Origin: Methanosaeta sp. PtaB.Bin039
GTDB lineage: Archaea > Halobacteriota > Methanosarcinia > Methanotrichales > Methanotrichaceae
Length of the DNA stretch: 36,003 bases
Direction of reading: 5' to 3'
Assembly (NCBI GenBank): GCA_002067795.1
Contig: MVQI01000033.1
Span: forward strand, 1 to 36,003
Of the stretch, positions 3,645 to 36,003 are shown one piece after another. Position 1 is the first letter of the stretch. Every line of letters starts with the position of its first letter. Position numbers and translations under genes: made by a program. Below the pieces are notes generated by a model, which worked only from the letters and a program-made list of their open reading frames with translations, was not told the DNA's origin and did not search any database.

Positions 3645-5252
3645 TCAGGTCTCCAGCTCCATCCCAACCACCGGCTGCTCCAGGCCAAAACCGGTTATCA
3701 CCGCCGGATGAAGCTCTCCGAAGCACCCAGCCCGCCTGCCTTCAAGCATTATATCCGCCCCCCGTCCTGGGATGAAAGCACCGTCTGCCGAAGGCACTAT
3801 CCTGGCAGGCATACACAGCTCACGAAGAACAGCCTCTGCAGCAGATCGCACCTCAGAGAAGCCGGCTCCGCTGTGGATTGATGCCGAGGCCAGATGGCTC
3901 TCAGTCCGCCCGCCAACAACCACATCCCCTACCGCAAAGATGCGCTGAGGCAACGGGTGGTGCTGGTTCATGGAGAGTATCTCCAAGAGACCTGGCAGGA
4001 TATCGGTCCTCACCATTGTGTGCAGCTCGCTTATGGGGTGCAGAACCCTGGTATAGTGGCACGGTTCGCGCCTCATCAGCTCGAACTGACTGTGCTCGCT
4101 CGTCAGTGTAAACGGCATGACCTCCAGATAGCCGAGACCTGCCAGGCTCTCACGAACCCGGCTTCTGTGAGTGGAGAGCGGATGCGACTGGCCCATTGTA
4201 ACTGTGGCCGGCATCTCGGCCTTGAGGTTCTCGTAGCCGAAGGCCTTGGCCGCGTCCTCGAATATGTCCCATGAGTGCATTATGTCCGCCCGGTAAGCCG
4301 GCACCAATACCTCCACCATGGACCCGTCTGGCCTGGCTCCAAAACGCATCCTCTGCAGAGCAGAAGCCAGCTCTTCCGGTCCCAAATCAAAGCCGATCAG
4401 GCTGTTGGCCTCTGCCGGGTCAACTACCCAGCGAGACGGTGTCAAATCAGGCAGAACCTTCTCGCCCTCTTGGGAGCGCAGCGTAACCCCCTCAATCCTT
4501 CCGCCCCGCTCAGCCAGAGCTGTCACCACTATGTTCAGCGCCTTGAATACGACCGGATCGGTGCCTGTGACATCTATGAACAGATCTCTTGTCTCGTCCC
4601 GCACCCTGGTCAGCTCACCGTTGATGATTGGCGGAAAGGACAGAACCTGGTCGTCCGAGTCGAGTATGAGCGGATAGCGCGGGCAGCCTTCCAGGATGTG
4701 GGCGAATGCGCGGCCCTTGGGATGGCGCTCTAAGACCTCCCGCATGCTCATCGAGTCCTGGAAGTCCAGTGGCACGAACCGGAAGGATGGGTCGGCTGCA
4801 AGATAGCGAAATGGCGGCCGGACCTGTGATATGTCGTGAACCCCTATTGCCACCTTGCGGCGGTTGCGTCCCAGCCCCCAGTGCAGATCCTCCTGGAGGT
4901 CCATCAGGGACTCTATGGCCGGATCGCTGAAGTGAAGATCGCGAATTACAGCACAGCCTATCACCGGCCTGACCGCCCTTACCGACGGGTCCACCTCCAT
5001 GACGATGGGCCCCCGAGAGACCTGATATTCGGGAAGGCCGGCATTCAATCCGAGAAATCCGGTCATGGCCCGGGCCACGCCCTCAGAGCAGTACAGGTCC
5101 GGCCGGTCTGGGAAGAACTCCACATCGACGTGATCCTCCTCCAGCCGCTTGCCTATATCTGCACCCATCATGGGCAGACGCTCCAGGATCGTCTCCTTTG
5201 AAGCGCCCACCATCTGCTCCAGATCCTCGTAGTAAAGCCTGACTACCGGCAT
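3645..5252 (-). CDS. pheT: Phenylalanine--tRNA ligase beta subunit, archaeal type
   Basis: The 535-aa product matches the shorter archaeal PheT, which lacks the bacterial EMAP tRNA-binding insert. It opens with 'MPVVRLYYEDLEQMVGASKE', typical of the archaeal/eukaryal beta subunit. It continues through B3/B4 editing-type sequence (about residues 85-275, including 'DLFIDVTGTDP') and a B5-like domain. It ends in a catalytic-like fold with 'VRTDILPGLLEILSMNQHHPLPQRIFAVGDV'-type sequence. With PheS it forms the alpha2beta2 enzyme that charges tRNA-Phe. The gene follows pheS with a 1-bp gap, so the two are clearly co-transcribed and probably translationally coupled. The 3' gap of about 240 bp separates it from the next operon. 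Confidence 0.96.
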   Translation of the reverse strand: MPVVRLYYEDLEQMVGASKETILERLPMMGADIGKRLEEDHVDVEFFPDRPDLYCSEGVARAMTGFLGLNAGLPEYQVSRGPIVMEVDPSVRAVRPVIGCAVIRDLHFSDPAIESLMDLQEDLHWGLGRNRRKVAIGVHDISQVRPPFRYLAADPSFRFVPLDFQDSMSMREVLERHPKGRAFAHILEGCPRYPLILDSDDQVLSFPPIINGELTRVRDETRDLFIDVTGTDPVVFKALNIVVTALAERGGRIEGVTLRSQEGEKVLPDLTPSRWVVDPAEANSLIGFDLGPEELASALQRMRFGARPDGSMVEVLVPAYRADIMHSWDIFEDAAKAFGYENLKAEMPATVTMGQSHPLSTHRSRVRESLAGLGYLEVMPFTLTSEHSQFELMRREPCHYTRVLHPISELHTMVRTDILPGLLEILSMNQHHPLPQRIFAVGDVVVGGRTESHLASASIHSGAGFSEVRSAAEAVLRELCMPARIVPSADGAFIPGRGADIMLEGRRAGCFGELHPAVITGFGLEQPVVGMELET

Positions 5253-6923: not shown

Positions 6924-7655
6924 CTATTCCCTCAGCACGCCACTGCCAGGCGGATCGGGAAAGCTCTCCAGCTCGTCGAGAACCTCCAGGACGCCCTGCA
7001 CCGCAATCTGGAAGAAATGGCTGCCCTTCTCTGCCGAGGCCCGGGATGGGTCGCCCATGATGCCGTTTCCCATGAGGTGCCGCACATCTCTGAGAACAAG
7101 GTAACGCGGCCTTTTCGGATGGTGGGCTGCTGGCAGGCCCTTAACAAGATCCGGCCGGTGATAGAGCATCCTGGACGTCTCGACCTCTCCAGCATGTCCA
7201 TCATCGGCTGCCTCTACCGCCTCGCTTAAAATGAAGTCGAAGTCTGTGACGAGGCTGACCCGCAGTCCTGCAGCCGCGGCATCCTGACAGGCCTCCTTCA
7301 AAGCTGCCATGTGCTGGCCTCCGGCATGTCCGGCCAGGACCAGTACATGCTCAAATCCGCACTCGCTCAAGGAGAACAGGATGTCTCGGACATAATGGCG
7401 AAGGCCATCGAAGGTCACGCTCACCGTACCTGGAAAGCCGCGGGTGCTGCGGCAGACTCCGTAGTGGACAGGCGGCGCGATGAATATGGGCCTCCTCCTT
7501 GCCACCTCCCTGGCGACCTCATCTGCCTGCAAGGTATCGGTGATGGTGGGCAGATGGGGGCCGTGCTCCTCCAGTGCGCCCACCGGCAGAAGCACGGTCC
7601 TGGTCCTGGCCAGGCCAGCCTCGATCTCCGGCCAGGTCATCTCCTCCATCATCAT
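6924..7655 (-). CDS. Creatininase-family amidohydrolase, probable ArfB-like deformylase
   Basis: The 243-aa product has the creatininase-family metal site: 'PVGALEEHGPHLP' with E30, H31 and H34, D40 of 'TITD', 'GHAGGQH' in the middle, and 'GHAGEVETS' later. In methanogens the best-characterised member is ArfB (MJ0116). It removes the formyl group from the FAPy nucleotide made by ArfA in the archaeal riboflavin and F420 pathway. I favour that role on family and lineage, but other creatininase members exist. Its ATG overlaps the aglB stop by 4 bp, so it is the second gene of an operon with aglB. The pairing of a flavin enzyme with an oligosaccharyltransferase is probably incidental. Confidence 0.8.
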   Translation of the reverse strand: MMMEEMTWPEIEAGLARTRTVLLPVGALEEHGPHLPTITDTLQADEVAREVARRRPIFIAPPVHYGVCRSTRGFPGTVSVTFDGLRHYVRDILFSLSECGFEHVLVLAGHAGGQHMAALKEACQDAAAAGLRVSLVTDFDFILSEAVEAADDGHAGEVETSRMLYHRPDLVKGLPAAHHPKRPRYLVLRDVRHLMGNGIMGDPSRASAEKGSHFFQIAVQGVLEVLDELESFPDPPGSGVLRE

Positions 7656-10375
7656 ACTTCTATAACTCCTCCGCTCTGCACAAGCTCCTCGGGGACCTTC
7701 ACCTCATAGATCGAGCCGCCTGCTGAGAGCTGGTAAGGCCCAGCCGGTGCAGTGTCGAACCTTGTGCCGTCAGGCAGCGGTCCTTCCGTGGAGTATGGCA
7801 CCACCAGGGTGTACTGACCCTGGGAGTCGGTCACATTGGACTGAACATAGATGAAGGAGCGGTTCTGGTTGGTCATCACTGCCACAGCTATCATGACCTT
7901 GCTGCCTGGTGCCGCCGTGCCCCGGATCGTCGCTCCGGGGACATGCTCGAATGTCTTCACGTACTTCTGGCCGTCGCTGGTCGCAGCGGTAGGAGACTCG
8001 TGGACCAGCCGGTAATGCTGGAGTGCCTCCACATGGATTGGGGAGATGGCGAAAGACCGGCTCACGATGCTCGCGTTGTATCCGGCCTCCTGGCTCTTGT
8101 TGACGAACTCCTCGAGCTCGGTCCTGTTCGTTGATATCAGCGGCGCCTGGGTAACCAGCATGACCTGGCTGCCGTCATTGGTCTGGACCTTCTCCACAGC
8201 GATGCCCACCGCCTCGCCTAATGGAATCTCGCTGCCGTCGAAGAAGTGCAGACGGGCCACCATGGTCCTGAAGTAGGGCTCAAGCCAGATCTGGATCGGG
8301 ACCAGGGAGCTCTCGCCCTGCGCCTGGAAGACGTATCCGTAATAGCGCCCGGTATTGATGGCGCTCCATGCGGCCATGGCGTGGAACTTTGTGACCGCCA
8401 TCTCCACATCTGTCATCACGTACCTGGTATTGAAATAGGGCGAACGGCTGGTGTTAAGCCCGGCCAGCACCGTCTCTGCCTCGGCCTCAGACTCGGCCAG
8501 GAAGAACGGCGAAGACCCCGGAATCCCGGCGGTCTTGTTACCGATGCCCTGCTGGAAGGGATTGGCATTGGGGTATCGCCCACCAATGGTCTCGATCAGG
8601 TGCCCGTAGTCCCACCAGGACATGACCCCATAAGCGGTTGCAGGGTACTGGAATTTCTGGCCGGATGGCGGCCTCTGGTACACCTCGTAGATGGGCAGTC
8701 CAGGATCGGGAGTATTGTTACCCAGCCACTTGATGGAGCTGTACCAGTCTGTATTCGGCCCCCTCGAGTATGTGGCGGTCTGGATGGAGTCCTGCAGACT
8801 GGGCATGGCCAGGAATAGTATCACCAGGAATATCAGCAGGGCCGATCCCATGCTTATGACTCCCGGCATCTCCGGGGTCTTTCCCTTCACCAGCCCTGCC
8901 AGGTAGCCCTCGATTGAAGAGAAGTCTATCTGACGGTAGGCTTCGGCTGCCAGGTAAGCGCAGAGCAGGGCTACGTTGACCCCGTAATAATAGGCAGACC
9001 TGTTCGCAGATAGGGTGATCAGGAAGATTACGATGCTCCAGACCAAGAACAACAGATGGGCCGGATTGGTCTCCTTGACGCTGCGATAGGCAACCAGGAC
9101 CATCCCTGCTATCGAGAAATAGAACGGAGAGAGGTAGTGCGAAACGCCCGGGAAGTTGGCATCTATTCCGGTCAGCTGGCCGTATGTCCTCTCGTAGATC
9201 GGAGAGAGTTCAGCAACTGTGGCCGCACCGCCAGATCGCGGAAACAGATAGGTTCGCATGCTGCCAACCAGTGAGCCGATGAAGCCTGGCATCACCACAT
9301 AGGCGACAAGCGCCACAAGGATGACCGCTCCTGGAACGGCTCCGGCCAGGACAGGCCAGCTCTGGCCACGCTGGCGCAGGAAGCGGGCCAAAAACGCCAC
9401 TGCCAGGACGAAGATACCGCCCGCCAGCAGCATGACCGGCTGGAAGAGAGAGTAATAGATAACAGCAAAGCCATTACGCGCGTCGGCGAATGGCAGCACC
9501 ATGAGCAGTGCAACCAAAAAGCCGATGCCACCTATTATTCCAGGGTACTCGGCATCTCTGCCGCGGACATATTCCGCCGCTGTCTGCAGCAGTATGAATA
9601 TCATCAGTATGCCCTGGAAGAGGATTCCCATGGCCCAGGCATCAATGTAAAGACCCAGCATCACCCCTGACGCAACCGCGACGGCCAGAGGACGTTTGAT
9701 CCTGGCCATGTCCATCTGGGCCAGAGAGCTGAATGTGAGATTTTGGCCGATTCTGAAGGCCATCATGAAGAGAAGGATGGCAGTGGTGCTGAGCAGCACC
9801 TCTGATGAGTGGTGGTCGGTGAATCCAAGCACGGTCCTGGAGAAGAGCTGCCCGGGCAATATCACTGCCAGAAAAGCAGCAGTCATTCCGCAGCCGCGGC
9901 CTCCCACCTCCTTTCCGATGAGGTACACGGGGATTACCAGCAGAGCTCCGAGGATTGCCGGCCAAAAAGCGCCCACCGTGTCTACCACCTGCAGGCTGGA
10001 CCCGCCCAGAGCCAGCACCTTGGATATCAAGGCTATGCCCCAGCTGACGAAAGGCCCGAAGTGCAGTCCCGCCCCATTGGGGAAGTTGGTGAGTGGATCG
10101 AACCAGGGGCGCTCCAGGTGCAGGAATGTGGTCTTGGCCAGCATCATATGATACCAGGCATCGCTCTCACTGCTGAAGCGCACACCATCGGCTAGGAATA
10201 CGTTCTTGAATGGGATAACAACCCTGAGATAGAGAGAGAACAAGAACAGCACGCACAGACCGCCGTACCAGTAAAGGTCGGGCAGGCGCGCCAGCTTACG
10301 GCCCCGATCCGGCTCGGACCTGTCCCGGGCTGGGTTTTCGCCAGACTCTCTCTTTTCTCCGCCATCTTTTCTCAT
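7652..10375 (-). CDS. aglB: AglB/Stt3-type oligosaccharyltransferase
   Basis: The product is about 907 aa with a short charged N-terminal tail, about 13 hydrophobic membrane segments (residues about 38-490) and a large soluble C-terminal domain. 'ESDAWYH' with D74 fits the first acidic DxD-like motif of external loop 1. 'TDHHSSE' follows later, and W589-W590-D591-Y592-G593 is the WWDYG signature that binds the acceptor sequon. The enzyme transfers a lipid-linked glycan to Asn of S-layer and other surface proteins on the outer face of the membrane. The start may be GTG 10381 or ATG 10375. An AGGAG lies 4 nt before the GTG and 10 nt before the ATG; I chose the ATG. A TATA box (10421-10430) precedes it. 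The stop overlaps the creatininase gene. Confidence 0.95.
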   Translation of the reverse strand: MRKDGGEKRESGENPARDRSEPDRGRKLARLPDLYWYGGLCVLFLFSLYLRVVIPFKNVFLADGVRFSSESDAWYHMMLAKTTFLHLERPWFDPLTNFPNGAGLHFGPFVSWGIALISKVLALGGSSLQVVDTVGAFWPAILGALLVIPVYLIGKEVGGRGCGMTAAFLAVILPGQLFSRTVLGFTDHHSSEVLLSTTAILLFMMAFRIGQNLTFSSLAQMDMARIKRPLAVAVASGVMLGLYIDAWAMGILFQGILMIFILLQTAAEYVRGRDAEYPGIIGGIGFLVALLMVLPFADARNGFAVIYYSLFQPVMLLAGGIFVLAVAFLARFLRQRGQSWPVLAGAVPGAVILVALVAYVVMPGFIGSLVGSMRTYLFPRSGGAATVAELSPIYERTYGQLTGIDANFPGVSHYLSPFYFSIAGMVLVAYRSVKETNPAHLLFLVWSIVIFLITLSANRSAYYYGVNVALLCAYLAAEAYRQIDFSSIEGYLAGLVKGKTPEMPGVISMGSALLIFLVILFLAMPSLQDSIQTATYSRGPNTDWYSSIKWLGNNTPDPGLPIYEVYQRPPSGQKFQYPATAYGVMSWWDYGHLIETIGGRYPNANPFQQGIGNKTAGIPGSSPFFLAESEAEAETVLAGLNTSRSPYFNTRYVMTDVEMAVTKFHAMAAWSAINTGRYYGYVFQAQGESSLVPIQIWLEPYFRTMVARLHFFDGSEIPLGEAVGIAVEKVQTNDGSQVMLVTQAPLISTNRTELEEFVNKSQEAGYNASIVSRSFAISPIHVEALQHYRLVHESPTAATSDGQKYVKTFEHVPGATIRGTAAPGSKVMIAVAVMTNQNRSFIYVQSNVTDSQGQYTLVVPYSTEGPLPDGTRFDTAPAGPYQLSAGGSIYEVKVPEELVQSGGVIEV

Positions 10376-12056: not shown

Positions 12057-12331
12057 TAATCAGAATCATGGGCGAAGGGCAGTTCTCAGTCTCCAGCAGC
12101 CTGATCGGCAAACTGAACGAGATCGACAACCGGATCGTCGAGAAGGTGTGCAGCGGGGACAAAGAGGGCTATGCACAGGAGCTGGCTCGACTGATTGCAA
12201 TGGTTAAGAGCGAAGGGGAGATTATGCAGAGCAGGGAGATCATCAGTTCCGACCTGATTATCCCCCCGCCCGATATGACTCTGGAAGAGGCTCAGAGGAT
12301 ATTCAAGGACGACGGGCTCATTGCTGACTGA
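12053..12331 (+). CDS. pspAA: PspA-associated protein PspAA
   Basis: The 92-aa product matches PspAA, the small partner usually encoded directly after pspA in archaea and actinobacteria. It starts 'MIIRIMGEGQFSVSSSLIG' and has a helical middle around 'LNEIDNRIVEKVCSGDKEGY'. It ends with the family's 'DLIIPPPDMTLEEAQRIFKD' segment and an acidic tail. It has no membrane segment. The ATG overlaps the pspA stop by 4 bp (ATGA), so the two are co-translated. It is thought to bind or modulate PspA; the mechanism in archaea is not established. Confidence 0.88.
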   Translation: MIIRIMGEGQFSVSSSLIGKLNEIDNRIVEKVCSGDKEGYAQELARLIAMVKSEGEIMQSREIISSDLIIPPPDMTLEEAQRIFKDDGLIAD

Positions 12332-12538
12332 TGGGCAAGCCGAAATCCGCCTGTCGCCACCGAGACGAATAGCTGGCGCGTCCTGCCCCTGGCAGGATGC
12401 GCTTTTTCAAGCGATTATCTTTCACGAGCATCAATTCGAGGCATCGGTATCCAATCTCTTTTTTTTCGCTTATCTGGCATGGGTGATCACGAATGTCTTT
12501 CAGCAGTCCGGCATTGGGCTTTGCGAATCCTGAAGGAT

Positions 12539-12575
12539 CCTCTTTGGTCCCACCGTGGATATCATGAATTCGAGG
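12539..12575. repeat. CRISPR-like 37-bp repeat, copy 1
   Basis: This unit begins CCTCTTTGGTCCCACC and ends GAATTCGAGG, so its ends CCTC/GAGG are complementary. It is identical to 12610-12646 except for one base (C versus T at the eleventh position). The 34-bp spacing between the copies gives a 71-bp period, as in a CRISPR. There are only two units and no cas genes in the window, so it may be a relic array or an unrelated duplicated element. Confidence 0.5.
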
Positions 12576-12609
12576 TCAGAAATATTTGGCGTCGCTTTCA
12601 GCCTCAGTG

Positions 12610-12646
12610 CCTCTTTGGTCTCACCGTGGATATCATGAATTCGAGG
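12610..12646. repeat. CRISPR-like 37-bp repeat, copy 2
   Basis: This is the second copy, with one mismatch to the first. The 34-nt sequence between the copies (12576-12609) is not related to the repeat. An A/T-rich patch follows, which on the plus strand looks like a leader or promoter-like region. Confidence 0.5.
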
Positions 12647-13007
12647 AGGATGATGGATAAAATATTTACAAAAATATAAATCACATCCGGACAATTGCGT
12701 TCACCTGACATCTTCAGCGGAGACCTCTTCGGGCAAAGCCCAGGCCACGCGTATGCGAACATCCCGCGATAATTGTGCCTCATGCAAATCATCTCCCATG
12801 ATCCGAAAAATCGAAGGCAGCGTCGATTTAGGGTGACGAGGGCTTTCTTGAAACATAAAACCTGGGTTACGATTGTACTTAGATGCTGATACGCCCCCGC
12901 AAAAAAGAGATGCGATGGCCCGGGAGATAGACTTCACCCAATCAAGGGCTCGATCCGTCATCTCCAAGCCCCCGCCAGCAGTCCCGGGCCGATCACGGGG
13001 TCCGGGC

Positions 13008-13673
13008 TTATTTCACATATACCCAGATGATATTGCTGTTCTGACAGCAGCAGTCACCAAGCCACAGAGCGTGCCAGCCCCGTCCCTGACCCTGCCAGGA
13101 GATGACGTAGTAACCGTACATCAGGCATCCAAGGTCGCGGCTGCGCACCGTGCCATCAGGCGACCTATCGTAGAGCCTGATCTGCCTGCACTGCTCGATG
13201 TTCACAAGGATATTGGTGGACTGGCCGTCCTTGAACGCTGCCGGGCCAAGCGACCACATCCTGTCGTAGAAGATCCACCCAAGCAGATCACCATCCCCGC
13301 ACTGGCCATAATAGGGGTGATTGGCATCATACTGATGGATGTATATAACAGGGGACTCGAGAAGGTGGATGAACTTAGCTATGGACTCTTCTGAAACCCT
13401 CTTGACCTTGGGTGCAAGCTTGATATCGCTCGACGCAGATATTGCGGGCACAGATGACGGAGGCGCCAAATCCATGGACTCAAATGAGTACAGACAGTCT
13501 TGCCAGGGGCATACAGACCCTGGCTGACAGTAGCAGGCTTGACTCCCTGGCATCGATCCGCCCTGGCATGAAATGCACTGGTCCACAAAACCACATCCCG
13601 TGCCCGAAGAAAGCAGAAGAAAGGTACCGATCAACAGAACACGTCCCCACCCATTGCAAAAGATCTCGCTCAT
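13008..13673 (-). CDS. Secreted cysteine-rich hypothetical protein
   Basis: The product is 221 aa from the ATG at 13673. Residues 10-27 form a signal peptide ending in a lipobox-like 'LSSGTGC' (C27), so it may be a lipoprotein or a cleaved secreted protein. A cluster of seven or more cysteines (residues 27-60, including 'CISC', 'CYC' and 'CPWQDC') follows. More cysteines occur near the C-terminus ('GDCCCQNSN'). A disulfide-rich or metal-binding extracellular domain is likely. I know no family. An upstream in-frame ATG at 13691 is less likely. A TATA-like cttatacc on the minus strand lies near 13745-13752. It lies on the same strand as, and downstream of, pspAB-htpX, so an envelope role is plausible. 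Confidence 0.65.
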   Translation of the reverse strand: MSEIFCNGWGRVLLIGTFLLLSSGTGCGFVDQCISCQGGSMPGSQACYCQPGSVCPWQDCLYSFESMDLAPPSSVPAISASSDIKLAPKVKRVSEESIAKFIHLLESPVIYIHQYDANHPYYGQCGDGDLLGWIFYDRMWSLGPAAFKDGQSTNILVNIEQCRQIRLYDRSPDGTVRSRDLGCLMYGYYVISWQGQGRGWHALWLGDCCCQNSNIIWVYVK

Positions 13674-29886: not shown

Positions 29887-30067
29887 GGAATAACAGCGGC
29901 GTGCGAAGAGTTACAGTCGTGCCTCCGTCTGAAAGGTCGGCCGTATCCCTGATCAAGCCGCATCTCTTTTGCCCGCGCTGGACGAAAAAAAATGAGGCAA
30001 AGACCCGGACAGGTCCATCCCGCAGATGCATCCAGACCGGGCACTTAGGCTGGCTGAATCGAAGCCG

Positions 30068-30075
30068 TTTTATTT
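30068..30075 (+). promoter_or_regulatory. TATA box for the K+ channel gene
   Basis: The sequence ttttattt is centred about 25 bp before the ATG at 30097, predicting a leaderless transcript. There is no Shine-Dalgarno. An A-run at about 29985 may mark the 3' end region of the fmd operon on the other strand or be chance. Confidence 0.45.
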
Positions 30076-30096
30076 TTATGGTTCGGATATCTATCC

Positions 30097-30972
30097 ATGG
30101 CCAGTCATCACGGATCGGCAGTCGAGAAGTCCAATTCGACCACCGCACTACCGCGGTCTTTCCGTCAGACTGTGCATTTCTACATGATAGATTACAGGAC
30201 TGCCATCGGCAGAGGAATCGACGTCTTCATCATCGCCCTCAACCTGCTGGTCTGCGGGATATTCGTGGCCAACACATATCCCATATCCGACGATTTCCGC
30301 AGTCTGCTGTGGCAGGCTGAGCTGGTGGCGGTCTTCTTCTTCATACTGGAGTTCTCCGCTCGCCTCTACGGCACGTACGACCGCAGAGGCCACATGAGAA
30401 ACGTCTACACGATAATCGACTTGGTTGCCATCTTCCCAACCCTCTTGGAGCTGGTCCTGCCTGCATTCGGCTTGGCCGTCTCCGTGGGGTTCATCAAGAC
30501 CATCAGGGTCTTCGCCGTCTTCCGAATCTTCCGGTTCTTGCGCTTCTTCGCCTCAGACCATCTCTTCTTCGGAATCATCGCCGCCGATCTGCTCCGCGTG
30601 GCCAGGCTGACGCTGACCATACTCATAATATTCTTCGTATCCTCCGGCCTGTTTTACTACGTTGAGAGCCCTTACAATCCCGACGTGCAGGACTTCGGCG
30701 CTGCCTTCTATTTCACGGTGGTGGCACTTTCAACCGTGGGGTTCGGCGACATCACCCCGGTCTCGGCGGCGGGAAGATTGGTGACGGTTCTCATGATCAT
30801 CTCCGGAATCATACTGATTCCCTGGCAGGCCAGCCAGATCGTTAAGGAGTGGCTGAATATATACGGACGGAAGAAGGTTGTCTGCTCGAACTGCGGCCTA
30901 TCTCATCACGAGTTGGATGCCTCACACTGCCGGCATTGCGGGCAGGTTCTCTTCATCCGTGAGGACCTGTGA
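30097..30972 (+). CDS. Voltage-gated-type K+ channel with C-terminal zinc ribbon
   Basis: The 291-aa product has six membrane segments. The S4-like 'FIKTIRVFAVFRIFRFLRFF' has a basic residue at about every third position, typical of voltage sensors. The pore loop has T213-V-G-F-G-D218, a K+ selectivity filter. After S6 (about 224-246) comes a short soluble tail with C263-x2-C266 and C278-x2-C281, a zinc-ribbon pattern. KvAP-like archaeal channels do not usually end this way, so the ribbon may be a redox or metal sensor, or an assembly domain (inference). It is not in an operon. Confidence 0.9.
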   Translation: MASHHGSAVEKSNSTTALPRSFRQTVHFYMIDYRTAIGRGIDVFIIALNLLVCGIFVANTYPISDDFRSLLWQAELVAVFFFILEFSARLYGTYDRRGHMRNVYTIIDLVAIFPTLLELVLPAFGLAVSVGFIKTIRVFAVFRIFRFLRFFASDHLFFGIIAADLLRVARLTLTILIIFFVSSGLFYYVESPYNPDVQDFGAAFYFTVVALSTVGFGDITPVSAAGRLVTVLMIISGIILIPWQASQIVKEWLNIYGRKKVVCSNCGLSHHELDASHCRHCGQVLFIREDL

Positions 30973-31320
30973 TCGAGATTTAGGCTTAAGAATTCCAAGA
31001 CGAGCCATAATCTGCCGATGTAGCACTGATACAAAAGTCTCAAGGCTGGCCGAGGATCGACTTGGACCTGCATAGCTTCTCTTTGTGCAATCGGTGACAG
31101 CCGGCCTGTCCCCCCCGTGTGGGCAAGGCGGCATGTCATCGCCGTCAGGCAGTACAATTGCCAGATAGGGACCTGTGCTCCGTAAGATTATTATACGTCG
31201 ATCGACGTTATTGATCACGGCGCAAGCTGGGACCCCGGATCGGCAACCGGACATCCCCGCTCTCGGCACCCAGCGCATGGGGATGGTGGCGATCGGCCCT
31301 GAAGGCCGCCGGGAGGGCGA
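30973..31320. other. 348-bp intergenic stretch with a TATA box and an exact palindrome
   Basis: Nothing coding is convincing here. The stretch has attattatac at 31187-31196, a TATA-like box. It overlaps ACGTCGATCGACGT at 31195-31208, a perfect 14-bp palindrome. The layout suggests an operator at the promoter of the secreted protein at 31321, with a leader of about 100 nt. Confidence 0.45.
31195..31208. promoter_or_regulatory. Perfect 14-bp palindrome at a TATA box (putative operator)
   Basis: ACGTCGATCGACGT reads the same on both strands and overlaps the end of a TATA-like sequence. A dimeric repressor bound here would block TFB/TBP binding. No regulator can be named. Confidence 0.4.
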
Positions 31321-31965
31321 TTGAGATCCGTGTATAAGAGAATCTGTCTGCTGGCGATCCTTGTGGCTGCTGCGGGCAGCTCGCCGGCTGCTCCGGATCT
31401 GGCAGGCCACTGGCTGATGAATCTGCAGGTGCAGAGCAGCAATGGAGAATACCAGATAGGGGAGGCTGGCCTTCTGATACTTCATCAGAACGGCTCAAAG
31501 GTCACTGGAAGGGCCGCCCTGGGAGACAGATCGGACGGCCTGGTGGAAGGCAGGTTCAAGAGAGGCCATGCCGACCTCACCCTTACGTTCTCCGCGGATC
31601 AGCCGTCGGTGGTGATGATGCTTGGAGTCGACCAGAGCGGAGAAGGGCTGGCAGGCCGCTTCTCAGCAGCGACCTCTGACGGCGGGGTCTACAGGGGCAG
31701 CTTCTCAGCACACCCCCAGGCAGCTGGATCCGTGGATACACCAAGCTGGCAGGACAGGCCGACCAGGAGGGAGAGGATGTCCCCGGAGTATATCTCCCGC
31801 TTCGTGACCTACGCAACGCCCACATCAACGGTCATGGACGACCCGGAGTACCACTACAAGCAGCAGCAAGGGTCGATGGTGAGGAAGACGTATGTGATAA
31901 AATACGATAGGAACTCCCTTCTCATGGTCAGGAACAAGCCGTTCCTTCATCAGTGGTGGCTCTGA
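31321..31965 (+). CDS. Secreted hypothetical protein
   Basis: The 214-aa product begins with TTG: 'MRSVYKRICLLAILVAAAGS' is a signal peptide, cleaved near 'SSPAAP'. GGGAGGGCGA lies directly before the TTG; a GTG at 31330 is the alternative. The mature part is beta-rich: 'DLAGHWLMNLQVQSS', then 'LILHQNGSKVTGRAALGDRS', then 'GLAGRFSAATSDGGVYRGSF'. This resembles lipocalin-like or META-type extracellular beta-sheets. A basic tail with 'SMVRKTYVIKYDR' follows. I know no family. It is likely extracytoplasmic. Confidence 0.65.
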   Translation: MRSVYKRICLLAILVAAAGSSPAAPDLAGHWLMNLQVQSSNGEYQIGEAGLLILHQNGSKVTGRAALGDRSDGLVEGRFKRGHADLTLTFSADQPSVVMMLGVDQSGEGLAGRFSAATSDGGVYRGSFSAHPQAAGSVDTPSWQDRPTRRERMSPEYISRFVTYATPTSTVMDDPEYHYKQQQGSMVRKTYVIKYDRNSLLMVRNKPFLHQWWL

Positions 31966-32059
31966 GGCGACAGCTGGAAAGCCGCTTTTGCCGAAATGGC
32001 CGGTTGTCTGAAATCCGGTTCCAAGGGACTCGTGGGCCCAGGGCCAGGAAGAATCCCTC

Positions 32060-32341
32060 TTATTGCCTCGTTGAGCCCTGGACGATCCCAACGCGTTGGC
32101 CTCTTTGCTGAAGTCGGTCCAGCAGATCTGATGCGCCTCTTCTGGCCGCCGTGGTCGCATCTTCGTCCTTCCGAAGGATAAGCTCGAGCACATCCCCCTC
32201 AGAAGTCTCAGTGGGGAGGAGGGCCAGTGGCAGCTCTATTCGCATCTCCTCGCCAGGCTGCCCAGCGACATCACCCGCCCTCCGTCTGCCCACAAGGAGG
32301 ACGGCTCTTCCGCCCTCAATCCGGTCAACCGTGGCCCTCAT
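32060..32341 (-). CDS. DUF3006-like small protein
   Basis: The 93-aa product starts 'MRATVDRIEGGRAVLLVGRR' and has 'LPTETSEGDVLEL' followed by a charged helical tail. That is the DUF3006 pattern, a small beta-barrel often encoded beside ComEC-like metallo-beta-lactamases. Its ATG overlaps the stop of the MBL gene by 4 bp, so they are translated together. The function is unknown. The neighbourhood suggests it assists the MBL protein. Confidence 0.8.
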   Translation of the reverse strand: MRATVDRIEGGRAVLLVGRRRAGDVAGQPGEEMRIELPLALLPTETSEGDVLELILRKDEDATTAARRGASDLLDRLQQRGQRVGIVQGSTRQ

Positions 32342-33324
32342 ATCTGATCTCCTCCGCCAAAGAGGTACTTAAGGATCCACATCAGCAAGTCCCATATGCT
32401 GGTATGAGACGTCTGCTCGACATCCGGACTGGCAAAATCGTCCCTCGGCATCTCGCCGTCCGGCTGCTTGCTGCTGGTGGTGACGGTGAGGCCCTTGCCG
32501 TCTGTGGACACGACGATATCGCCGTCCTGATCCGTCCTGTAGACAGCCGATCCCTGGGCGGCCAGGGACCGCAGCACCCGGAAAGAGGGGTAACCGTAAT
32601 CGTTGCCTGAGCCAACGGTGATGACGCTGACAGACGGCATAACAGCCCGGAGGAATGCCGGCTGAGAGCTGTAGGGACTTGCGTGATGCCCGACTTTCAA
32701 TACCTCGCTCTGCAGCCCGCGGTGAGAGTCCAGAAGGCTCTGCTCGGCTGCGGTGCCGACATCAGACATGAGCAGGAAGGAGACGCTGCCAAAAGTCGCC
32801 CTCAACACAATCGAGTCCTCGTTGAGTCCCAGGCCATAACCTTCAGATGGAGGGGATAGCACCTCTATCCGGGCGTCCGGGCCAAGGGGTATTATCTGGC
32901 CGAATGCGCCCGCTTTGAGGGGGATTTCCATCTGATCGGCCAGTGAGAGAAAGCGCGTATAGCTGCTGGTTGTATGGGGCTTGCCGCTGTCCAGCACCTG
33001 GCGCACCGGAATGTTCCGAAGCACAAAGCTTAAACCACCAACGTGGTCGGAGTGGGGGTGGGTAGCCACCACCAGGTCCAGTGAATCGGTCCCAACTGAG
33101 GTCAGATATGATACCACGACAGGGCCCATCTCGTATTCCCCGCCATCGATCAGAACATTTTTTTGGCCGCACTGGATCAAGATGCAGTCCCCCTGTCCCA
33201 CGTCCAGGAAATGGACGGTCATGTTGCCGGCAGCATAGGCGGCGCCTGAGACGGAGGCTGCCGCAAGCGCCAGAAGCATCGCAAGCAGGAATGTTCGGAC
33301 GGAATTGATATGGCGGGAATTCAC
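32338..33324 (-). CDS. Secreted ComEC/Rec2-like metallo-beta-lactamase
   Basis: The product is about 328 aa from a GTG at 33324, with a signal peptide over residues 8-32 ('FLLAMLLALAAASVSGAAYA'). 'VHFLDVGQGDCILI' (35-50) and H89-x-H91-x-D93-H94 in 'THPHSDHVGG' are those of the ComEC-C / Rec2 MBL family. It is a free-standing domain without the ComEC channel. It may act on nucleic acid or phosphoesters outside the membrane (inference). The GTG is chosen because GAGGAGG lies 9 nt upstream and the signal peptide starts there; an in-frame ATG at 33471 would put 49 odd residues in front. Confidence 0.85.
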   Translation of the reverse strand: MNSRHINSVRTFLLAMLLALAAASVSGAAYAAGNMTVHFLDVGQGDCILIQCGQKNVLIDGGEYEMGPVVVSYLTSVGTDSLDLVVATHPHSDHVGGLSFVLRNIPVRQVLDSGKPHTTSSYTRFLSLADQMEIPLKAGAFGQIIPLGPDARIEVLSPPSEGYGLGLNEDSIVLRATFGSVSFLLMSDVGTAAEQSLLDSHRGLQSEVLKVGHHASPYSSQPAFLRAVMPSVSVITVGSGNDYGYPSFRVLRSLAAQGSAVYRTDQDGDIVVSTDGKGLTVTTSSKQPDGEMPRDDFASPDVEQTSHTSIWDLLMWILKYLFGGGDQI

Positions 33325-33365
33325 GGGTGCAGACCTCCTCTGGAACTGAGCCAGGCATGGCCAGG

Positions 33366-33381
33366 GTATTATTTTATTTTT
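33366..33381 (-). promoter_or_regulatory. TATA region for the MBL gene
   Basis: The minus strand is an A/T run (aaaaaataaaataata) about 45-57 bp before the GTG start at 33324, suited for TBP binding and a leader of about 25 nt. Confidence 0.45.
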
Positions 33382-33560
33382 TCGACAATCGACAATATTG
33401 TGAAAATAGAGCGTTTCTGAGACTGGCAAGGCCCCCATGCAAGTCCATCTGGCGTACGCCCGTCGCTGCATTGCGGGGAGCGGCAGAGAGATATACCACT
33501 GCTGACACTACCGCACCAGGTGTTGCAGGGTCCCTTTCAGAGGCCGCAGCATTTGAGGTT

Positions 33561-33644
33561 GCGGGGTTTGCCAAGCTGGCCAAAGGCGCAGGACTTAAGA
33601 TCCTGTCTCGCAGGAGTTCGCGGGTTCGAATCCCGTACCCCGCA
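33561..33644 (+). tRNA. tRNA-Leu (anticodon UAA)
   Basis: GCGGGGT at the 5' end pairs with ACCCCGC, discriminator A. The anticodon arm CAGGA-CTTAAGA-TCCTG gives UAA. A long variable arm (TCTCGCAGGAG) and T arm (CGGGTTCGAATCCCG) follow. No CCA is encoded. The 3' end borders about 1 kb of A/T-rich DNA, the geometry of a tRNA-targeted integration. Confidence 0.95.
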
Positions 33645-34039
33645 TGGCAATCTATCATTAGATAGTGGTCTTTAGGAGTTGTCCCTTTATCGCTTCATGG
33701 ATAAATGGAGTATTCTTTTATATGACCCTTTTGATGCAAAAGGTACAATCCTGTCGCGTTAGAGTCGTGCTGGCTTCCTACTTGGCCCATAAGATAATTA
33801 TATAAATTACAATATATAATGACGTTGAAGACCGTCTAGGTTTTAGGAATCTACTCCAAGATAGTCATATAACTGCTATTAAGAAATATCATGAGATTCT
33901 CAGCATACCGATCTTGCACCATGGCAAACGAGATCGGAAGTGGTTATTGATATTTCGATGAAGAAAATGAGCGACAACTCTTGTGTGGTTAACGGTATAT
34001 CAAGAAGCTTGTCATGCCTAATACCATCTTTTATAAGCA

Positions 34040-34097
34040 TCGTAATTTGGAAAATTGTCCCTCTAGATTCGTGATTTGGAAAATTATCCCTCTAGAT
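34040..34097. repeat. Tandem 29-bp repeat, two copies
   Basis: Copies at 34040-34068 and 34069-34097 differ at two positions. Each contains ATTTGGAAAATT followed by (g/a)tccctctagat. Looser versions of the core occur at about 33678 (gttgtcccttta) and 34109 (aaattatcacttt). Iteron-like arrays of this type may bind a replication or regulatory protein, but two full copies are a thin basis. Confidence 0.55.
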
Positions 34098-34301
34098 ACT
34101 AGATGATAAATTATCACTTTGGGGAGTCCTATGCAAGATAATGTAATATAATATAGATGATAAGGCAACAAACATATTATAACATTTAAAGATTTTATTT
34201 TTTTAAAAATAACTCCCTAAAGAGAGGATCGCAATTATGTCAATATCATTTCCATCATGCTCAAGCCAAATACATATCGCGGAACATCCAATAAGGCCCG
34301 G

Positions 34302-34322
34302 GGGGATTGCCATAGAATCCCC
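34302..34322. other. 7-bp perfect stem hairpin
   Basis: GGGGATT at 34302-34308 pairs with AATCCCC at 34316-34322 around a 7-nt loop. It is a small G/C-rich island in the A/T-rich stretch. It could be a terminator-like or RNA structural element. Confidence 0.45.
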
Positions 34323-34380
34323 ACAACATCATCGATAATCTACTTTTCATTTATAAACAAAATCGTATATGTAGGTATGC

Positions 34381-34494
34381 CTATATATAAGCCTTGCGAT
34401 ATACTTATATACTATGGCCCCCACACAACGTGTTTGGAGGCCAAAGAAGTATGGCCGAATAGTCCGACGCTTGGTCGATTCTGACGCGTCGGGC
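34381..34494 (+). ncRNA. Candidate structured RNA with TATA box and two hairpins
   Basis: TATATATAAG-like sequence at about 34382-34391 is a near-consensus TATA box, predicting transcription from about 34413. The first hairpin (34415-34443) has 11 pairs in a 13-position stem, closed at the base by TGGCC/GGCCA. The second (34462-34494) pairs GTCCGACGC with GCGTCGGGC (one G-T) around a 15-nt loop. They are G/C-rich islands in an A/T-rich non-coding stretch, a known mark of archaeal RNA genes. No known RNA family is recognised. The RNA proper would be about 34413-34500. Confidence 0.35.
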
Positions 34495-34697
34495 AAGAAT
34501 ATGCCAAATTAACAAAGATAGCTTACGGTATCGAAGAACAGGGAGATAATAAAACAAACTAGTGGATCGTATCTAAATGGAATATCGAATGAACCGAATA
34601 ATAATGCAACCTAGAAGATATGAAATTGAAAATAAATCATCTTCGTATTTCACATATTGCAGCGAAGTGGTACTGCTAATGATAATGAGGTAATAAT

Positions 34698-36003
34698 ATG
34701 AAAGACGAACGTGAAACAGATGGAACGTCAACATCGGTATCGGTTCCACAACAGACAGTGGAAGCCGCATTACTGTGTATGAGCTCGGCCTGCGACGGTG
34801 CAGAAACTCGTGATGGGAGAGGATACAGCAAATATGATTCCGAGTTTGGAAACGACCTCGCCGAGAAATTGCGGAGAGGAGATAAGCTAACCCAACAAGA
34901 TGTTGATAAGGCTATACGGATGCTGGCCAAATATAAGGGTCAGCTCTCCAAAGCTGGGATACAGTTCGAATTGGTGGAGGCCGAAGCAAAAGAACGCCAA
35001 ATGAAAACGCAGAAACAGGAATTCTCTCCCGAAGTTATCGCAAAGGCACAGGAGATAATTGACGGCGGCACGTCCTACGAATTCCTTTATTCGACCTGGC
35101 AAAGGATGCATTATGGCGATGAAGCACTTGGAAAGATACTAATCATCAGCACCGCCGTTGGGTGCTCGACCAATACCAAAGGTCTACATGTGTTAGCATC
35201 AGGACCAAGAGGTTCAGGTAAAACCGATGCGGTCAACAAGGCCCTACATTTGGTGGATGTGAACCATCGATTTCCAGGGAATGTCACTCCGCAGGCCCTA
35301 TTCTATCACAGAGATGGTTTTGAGCCGGGCACCATAATTGGAATAGATGATCTGAAATGGAACGACGATCTAGGCGTGTCTGTGAAACAGATCACTGCTC
35401 GTTTCCAGGAGAGAGTAAAGCGGGCTACAGTGAAAGAACAAGAAGGATGCGAATTCGAGGCGCAGAAGCGCCTCACATTCTGGGTAACTTCTGTAGATAA
35501 CCAGGGAGATGAGCAAATCCGAGACCGCTTCGTCATGATAGAGGTGTCCAGCACTCCCGAACACAAGAAGAAAGTTCAGGAACACATGAAGTTGCAGGAT
35601 ATGGGAGTTGATGATCCAGACGTCATGGCATTCGACATATCGGTATGCCAATGTATTGTTGCCGATATGCATAAGCAAGAATTCGACGTGATAATACCAT
35701 TCGCCGATCGAATAGTATATGATGGGGATAACCGCGGTTACGGAATGCTTGGTGACATGATTAAGGGTCTCGCTGTCTTGAGATATGGGATTAGGAGCTC
35801 TGATGAAAATGGTCGTCTAATAGCTACAGAAGAAGATTTCAGAGATGCGCAAGAGCTATTCAAGGCAATCGGCGGTCATTCCGCTGATAAGTACACAGAT
35901 GCCGAATTGAGAGTATTAGACGCGATAGTTGCCTGTGGCCGTGCCGCTACCGTCACCCAGATATGTGCTCAGACTGGTCTCTCTGACCAGCGAGTCTATG
36001 AAA
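34698..36003 (+). CDS. AAA+ ATPase, probable replication or mobile-element protein, truncated by window end
   Basis: The frame is open from ATG 34698 to the last base (435 codons). GAGG lies about 9 nt before the ATG. After a helical N-terminus (about 150 residues), Walker A 'GPRGSGKT' lies at residues 169-176, Walker B-like 'IIGIDD' around 213-218, a sensor-1-like 'FWVTSVDN' and an arginine finger-like 'QIRDRF' follow. The end ('ELRVLDAIVACGRA' and 'TVTQICAQTGLSDQRVYE') looks like the start of a winged-helix domain. The layout (AAA+ then winged helix) recalls MCM- and Cdc6-type replication ATPases and element-encoded helicases, but I cannot name a family. Codon use is more A/T-rich than that of the core genes, in line with transfer. 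Confidence 0.75.
   Translation, partial: MKDERETDGTSTSVSVPQQTVEAALLCMSSACDGAETRDGRGYSKYDSEFGNDLAEKLRRGDKLTQQDVDKAIRMLAKYKGQLSKAGIQFELVEAEAKERQMKTQKQEFSPEVIAKAQEIIDGGTSYEFLYSTWQRMHYGDEALGKILIISTAVGCSTNTKGLHVLASGPRGSGKTDAVNKALHLVDVNHRFPGNVTPQALFYHRDGFEPGTIIGIDDLKWNDDLGVSVKQITARFQERVKRATVKEQEGCEFEAQKRLTFWVTSVDNQGDEQIRDRFVMIEVSSTPEHKKKVQEHMKLQDMGVDDPDVMAFDISVCQCIVADMHKQEFDVIIPFADRIVYDGDNRGYGMLGDMIKGLAVLRYGIRSSDENGRLIATEEDFRDAQELFKAIGGHSADKYTDAELRVLDAIVACGRAATVTQICAQTGLSDQRVYE

Follow-up and report, generated by a model that had tools for sequence, protein, structure and literature searches.

Stable hairpins upstream of a replication-type ATPase gene in a probable integrated element of a Methanotrichaceae archaeon

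Little is known about the control of copy number in archaeal plasmids and proviruses. In bacteria, plasmid pIP501 is subject to copy control of the antisense and leader type. The same kind of control has been described for another bacterial plasmid, pMV158, where it involves RNAII (PMC4485353). Among methanogens, the cryptic plasmid pME2001 provides the replicon of shuttle vectors (PMC8609365), and the pC2A replicon encodes an HUH RepA, with a DSO and an SSO proposed to lie near repA (PMC9569500). If a structured stretch ahead of rep does control replication, it would offer a testable handle on the replicon type of the methanogen shuttle vectors. The window analysed here, the whole of a 36,003-nt contig (C33) in a host draft genome of 2.45 Mb, ends within a gene related to the Rep of pME2001 and contains two stable hairpins in the non-coding DNA before it; by itself, the window presents just a likely regulatory leader.

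The AT-rich region beside tRNA-Leu(TAA)

The features of the locus are collected in Table 1. GC content drops sharply immediately 3′ of the tRNA-Leu(TAA) gene, to 36% in 33646-34697 versus 58% in 30000-33559 and 48% within the ATPase ORF. Relatives carry elements in tRNA-Leu genes, flanked by att repeats that correspond to the 3′ part of the tRNA. The junction with the tRNA gene, the drop in GC and the elements of these relatives lead us to infer that foreign plasmid- or virus-like DNA has been integrated at the tRNA-Leu(TAA) gene of this Methanotrichaceae archaeon, in agreement with the integrated element proposed in the preliminary description. A search for a duplicated att site with the sequence of 33585-33650 returned no second copy besides other tRNA-Leu genes; the contig ends at 36003, inside the ATPase gene. 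The kilobase between the tRNA and ATPase genes had also been described as A/T-rich and geneless, which its composition and the lack of any convincing gene bear out. An ORF at 34257-34484 was rejected as coding because it has no family match, spans the TATA box and lacks a Shine-Dalgarno sequence. The 29-bp tandem repeats are possible iterons of a replication origin.

Table 1. Coordinates of the features from the tRNA-Leu gene to the contig end
Feature	Position	Strand	Remarks
tRNA-Leu (TAA)	33560..33645	+	ARAGORN and Rfam; likely attachment site of the integrated element
AT-rich non-coding putative control region, tRNA-Leu to replication ATPase	33646..34697		36% GC; no convincing ORF
Tandem direct repeats, 2 x 29 bp	34040..34097		93% identical (repeat search); TRF score 102
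T-rich tract TTTTATTTTTTT	34193..34204	+	Candidate terminator for transcription from the tRNA side
Hairpin 1	34302..34322	+	-11.2 kcal/mol; sixth best in region; z = -0.2; chance level
TATATATAAG, candidate TATA box 1	34382..34391	+	One mismatch to TTTATATA; predicted start ~34411
CTTATATA, candidate TATA box 2	34404..34411	+	As good as box 1; by eye resembles the TTTATATACTA box of viruses L077/L078
Predicted 5′ leader of replication ATPase mRNA, from TATA box 1	34411..34697	+	Putative transcript
Hairpin 2 (TGGCC.CCA.ACA-ACG-TGT.TGG.GGCCA)	34415..34443	+	-15.0 kcal/mol over 34412-34447; z = -3.0
Hairpin 3	34462..34494	+	-19.3 kcal/mol over 34462-34495; 67% GC; pair probability >0.99
Replication ATPase ORF, P-loop GPRGSGKT	34698..36003	+	435 aa, open to contig end (truncated)

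Other elements with integrase-like genes are found at the same tRNA-Leu(TAA) gene in G030:C47 (34813-34870 and 43067-43152; L071) and G011:C32 (L072), one of them with a 58-bp att repeat ~8 kb away, so that this gene appears to be a hot spot of insertion. The window's own genome (G000) contains another tRNA-Leu gene with an integrase after it that shares 56% identity with the L059 integrase (C44, 17278-18336), together with an integrase fragment that contains a stop and lies beside a tRNA-like stretch (C62, 111-549). At L060 (7160-8504 of G016:C115), an integrase-like gene ends near an archaeal SRP RNA gene (8190-8504, minus strand), a possible case of an element inserted at an SRP RNA gene.

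Hairpins, candidate promoter and replication ATPase

The preliminary description reported three hairpins with correct coordinates and sequences; two of them, hairpins 2 and 3, are more stable than chance, whereas hairpin 1 is not. Local folding of 33646-34697 (span 40), compared with 200 dinucleotide shuffles of the whole kilobase, ranks hairpins 3 and 2 as its top two short hairpins. None of the 200 shuffles yielded a best hairpin at or below -18.9 kcal/mol (lowest -18.6) or a second-best hairpin at or below -14.5 (lowest -14.4). The signal weakens at longer folding spans; for the best hairpin on its own, span 45 gives p = 0.03 when the kilobase is shuffled and p = 0.007 when only 34391-34697 is. 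For the two hairpins together (34405-34500), z is -3.9 when the plus strand is folded and -3.2 for the minus strand. As RNA, the minus-strand form of hairpin 2 is more stable than the plus-strand form (-18.9 versus -15.0), and hairpin 3 combines a stem of 9 bp, in which one pair is U.G in plus-strand RNA, with a 3-nt bulge and an upper stem of 4 bp. A switch pairing between GGCCA (34438) and TGGCC (34451) was rejected as clearly weaker than hairpins 2 and 3, which form with probability above 0.94.

Box 1 lies ~27 bp before hairpin 2, where a strong TATA box had been claimed; the box is present, but the adjective is not warranted, as five plus-strand boxes with at most one mismatch to TTTATATA are observed and 2.4 are expected. 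On the minus strand seven are observed versus 3.4 expected, one of them at 34577. A role for TATATATAAG as a promoter box is plausible; at neither box is there a clear counterpart of the GAAA-type BRE that precedes many of the host family's tRNA-Leu genes. The start predicted from box 1 falls at the foot of hairpin 2 and that from box 2 inside it. The plus strand has no run of four or more T residues in 34348-34760, and with no U-run on the way from the hairpins to the ATPase start, transcription begun at the TATA box should read into the ATPase gene, whose ATG at 34698 is preceded by the Shine-Dalgarno sequence GAGGT.

The encoded protein is, judged from its sequence, a replication-type P-loop ATPase of the pME2001/pMTB1 Rep family. 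It is 27% identical to the putative Rep of pMTB1 (tblastn E 5e-11), and profile comparison with the Rep of pME2001 by hhalign gives a probability of 99.2% over 345 columns. Its closest relatives belong to Methanothrix proviruses, elements and viral contigs, with identities of 43-45% to the ATPases of elements in G012 and G016 and 42-46% to those of three viral contigs (L076-L078). Protein-pattern scans of the genome and viral contigs from the window ATPase alone found no close relative; patterns built on alignments recovered relatives at 43-46% and one at 32%. The motif DEQIRDRF is invariant in the three closest relatives, and its DEQ and RDR in seven. Residues 1-90 match phrog_21015 (E 7e-6) and other, longer ATPases. 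Earlier labelled AAA+, the protein retains the P-loop ATPase part of that name, and AAA+ identity is plausible; the label goes further than the evidence, as Pfam gave no match above cut-off, AAA included. An AlphaFold model of the protein is poor (pLDDT 54).

The hairpins thus lie between a candidate promoter and a Rep-type ATPase gene, which makes the previously suggested link to replication-gene control likely; hairpins 2 and 3 are probably regulatory. The explanation we prefer, with about an even chance of being right, is that they form a cis-acting control region of the element's replication gene, a folded leader that sets Rep synthesis. Transcription would start at ~34411, just 5′ of hairpin 2, and a leader of ~285 nt would cross hairpins 2 and 3 before entering the Rep-type ATPase frame at 34698. 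Its fold would then set Rep synthesis, and hence copy number, via mRNA stability or translation, possibly with the involvement of a protein bound to the leader. In its simplest form the account would be a structured leader, or an overlapping operator, that governs how much replication protein is made. Findings from the window argue for such a leader, namely that the hairpins beat shuffles and lie between the TATA-like boxes and the ATPase start without a U-run, and that the ATPase is of replication type with Rep relatives in pMTB1 and pME2001.

The placement of hairpin 2 at the predicted starts of both TATA boxes speaks for the main rival explanation, in which the inverted repeats act as DNA, either as operators for a repressor or Rep that overlap the start or as part of an origin with the 29-bp repeats. 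Stem stability is similar for the two strands, the tandem repeats lie 300 bp upstream, and an AT-rich region beside rep is typical of origins. The U.G pair and asymmetric bulge of hairpin 3, however, are unlike a simple dimer operator, copies of this hairpin's 3′ arm occur in the window no more often than by chance, and the element, as far as the contig reaches, shows no repressor gene. On balance, operators or origin palindromes are somewhat unlikely to be the explanation.

Ranking third, and improbable, is a separate RNA gene, which had been suggested in the preliminary description as a new one; such a gene is possible, but the searches do not support it. It would be either a small plus-strand RNA of ~100 nt (34411-34510) or a minus-strand antisense RNA, acting in trans on Rep as in bacterial plasmids. 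As plus-strand RNA, 34411-34510 does adopt a two-domain fold, in which hairpin 2 comes first and a short UGGC/GCCA helix then encloses hairpin 3 (-37.8 kcal/mol), and an antisense RNA would be consistent with the greater minus-strand stability of hairpin 2 and the minus-strand TATA-like box at 34577. Meile and colleagues reportedly mapped a short pME2001 transcript in 1988, which would also favour an RNA gene. Against it, no U-run follows hairpin 3 in a plus-strand transcript, and a minus-strand transcript would have none directly after hairpin 2. Rfam returned no family above its gathering score except tRNAs (best other match E 0.26, below cut-off), and DNA searches with 33650-34697 in 50-100 genomes of the same family or class gave only tRNA or short chance-like matches. 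No second hairpin copy was found in the window's own genome, and relaxed hairpin patterns had zero matches in viral contigs.

Regions upstream of related replication operons

The five closest relatives were tested for the best hairpin upstream of the gene that opens the replication operon; it is significant in four (p = 0.007 for L059, 0.003 for L076, 0.007 for L077 and 0.010 for L078) and not in L060 (p = 0.20). The hairpins of L077 and L078 have nearly identical flanks, with the stem sequence replaced and the pairing kept, which is what structural conservation would look like, in a comparison of two sequences only. In a scan of 49 loci that encode related, mostly more distant ATPases, only a minority showed structured upstream regions, and a general rule of structured leaders in this ATPase family is not supported.

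The leader of the L059 provirus (9005-9245, minus strand, G012:C43; ~230 nt) is a better structured-RNA candidate than hairpins 2 and 3 of the window, with several GC-rich helices, a folding energy of -89.6 kcal/mol and z = -5.5. A search of 50 genomes of the family found no relatives of this leader, and its direct alignment with the window leader gave nothing above AT-rich noise that would indicate homology. Ahead of their Rep operons, pME2001 and pMTB1 likewise have a strongly folded stretch, with z = -4.6 and -3.4, respectively; by the short-hairpin test pMTB1 is significant and pME2001 is not, and the pMTB1 hairpin lies upstream of the folded stretch. This stretch covers ~4829-4935 and then 1-117 in pMTB1 (L081) and ~4331-4439 and then 1-88 in pME2001 (L163), is 95% identical between the two plasmids, and lies between a TATA-like box and the Rep operon. 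A coding explanation of the pMTB1 leader was rejected, as its possible 25-codon frame, read by eye, is broken in pME2001.

Most relatives have a small ORF between the leader and the ATPase gene; between 34484 and 34698, the window has no plus-strand ORF of at least 50 aa. The operon is therefore arranged differently from those of its relatives, as it lacks the small gene before the ATPase, which is Hfq/Sm-like in some of them. Small ORFs directly 5′ of the replication ATPase occur in several archaeal elements, including L080 (2456-2713), L076 (1279-1479) and L078 (4487-4983). That of L080 is weakly Hfq-like (Hfq E 2e-5) and that of L078 weakly RimP-SH3-like, both below curated cut-offs; the remaining ones have no family match. 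One may speculate that the Hfq/Sm- or SH3-like small proteins of relatives bind such leaders.

These comparisons bear on the proposed leader in both directions. In its favour are the stable hairpins found in the corresponding position in most close relatives, the folded regions of pME2001, pMTB1 and L059, and the stem of L077 and L078 that changed in sequence and still folds; the better folding of hairpin 2 on the minus strand, the minority of structured regions among the 49 loci, the missing small gene and the lack of a clear BRE count against it. A further explanation is that the element is decaying and its hairpins are chance structures or neutral remnants. One of the three is at chance level, conservation could not be shown, the contig ends within the ATPase gene, the 49-locus scan revealed no universal structure, and p rises to 0.03 at span 45. 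Nevertheless, at span 40 the neighbouring hairpins 2 and 3 outdo the shuffles, the ATPase frame has stayed open and keeps conserved motifs, and most close relatives have hairpins in a similar position, all of which makes a neutral origin the least probable of the explanations considered. Returning to the folded leader, a broader proposal would be RNA-based copy control in archaea, whereby replicons with a pME2001-type Rep carry a fast-evolving structured RNA before rep, its structure but not its sequence kept, possibly acting with the Hfq/Sm-like protein that some relatives encode beside rep; we regard this extension as improbable.

Comparison with described replicons

Among the known systems closest to that of the window is L059, which shares with it the host family, an ATPase of 43-45% identity and integration, probable in the window, at a tRNA-Leu gene. 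L059 lies at tRNA-Leu(GAG) (3675-3762), has a 41-bp att repeat at 13095-13135, and encodes its ATPase at 7485-8774 and an integrase, named tyrosine-type from its sequence, at 12112-12990. As in the window, a TATA-like box is followed by a strongly folded leader, although the leader sequence is not homologous; L059 differs in having a small ORF before the ATPase and in directing the ATPase towards the tRNA, whereas that of the window is directed away from it. The viral contigs IMGVR 3300038673_000480, 3300005326_000725 and 3300001866_000284 (L076-L078) also have significant hairpins just before the replication operon. Their leaders are shorter than that of the window, their hairpins differ in sequence, and their ATPase genes follow small SH3/Sm-like ORFs and have more genes around them.

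Among described plasmids, the Methanothermobacter plasmids pME2001 (NC_002125, NC_014409) and pMTB1 (CP006848) share the Rep-type ATPase family of the window, and the RepA of pC2A belongs to a different protein family. The Rep proteins of pME2001 and pMTB1 are 23-28% identical to the window ATPase, their leader sequences are unrelated to that of the window, and they are free plasmids with a different small ORF before rep, whereas the window holds a probable integrated element. In both, as in the window, a TATA-like box is followed by non-coding DNA that is long and strongly folded and leads up to the Rep operon. Control of the pMV158/pIP501 type involves other Rep families, the window host is archaeal, and an antisense RNA and its promoter would be hypothetical in the window. 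As in those bacterial plasmids, hairpins placed between promoter and rep could likewise set Rep synthesis in the window.
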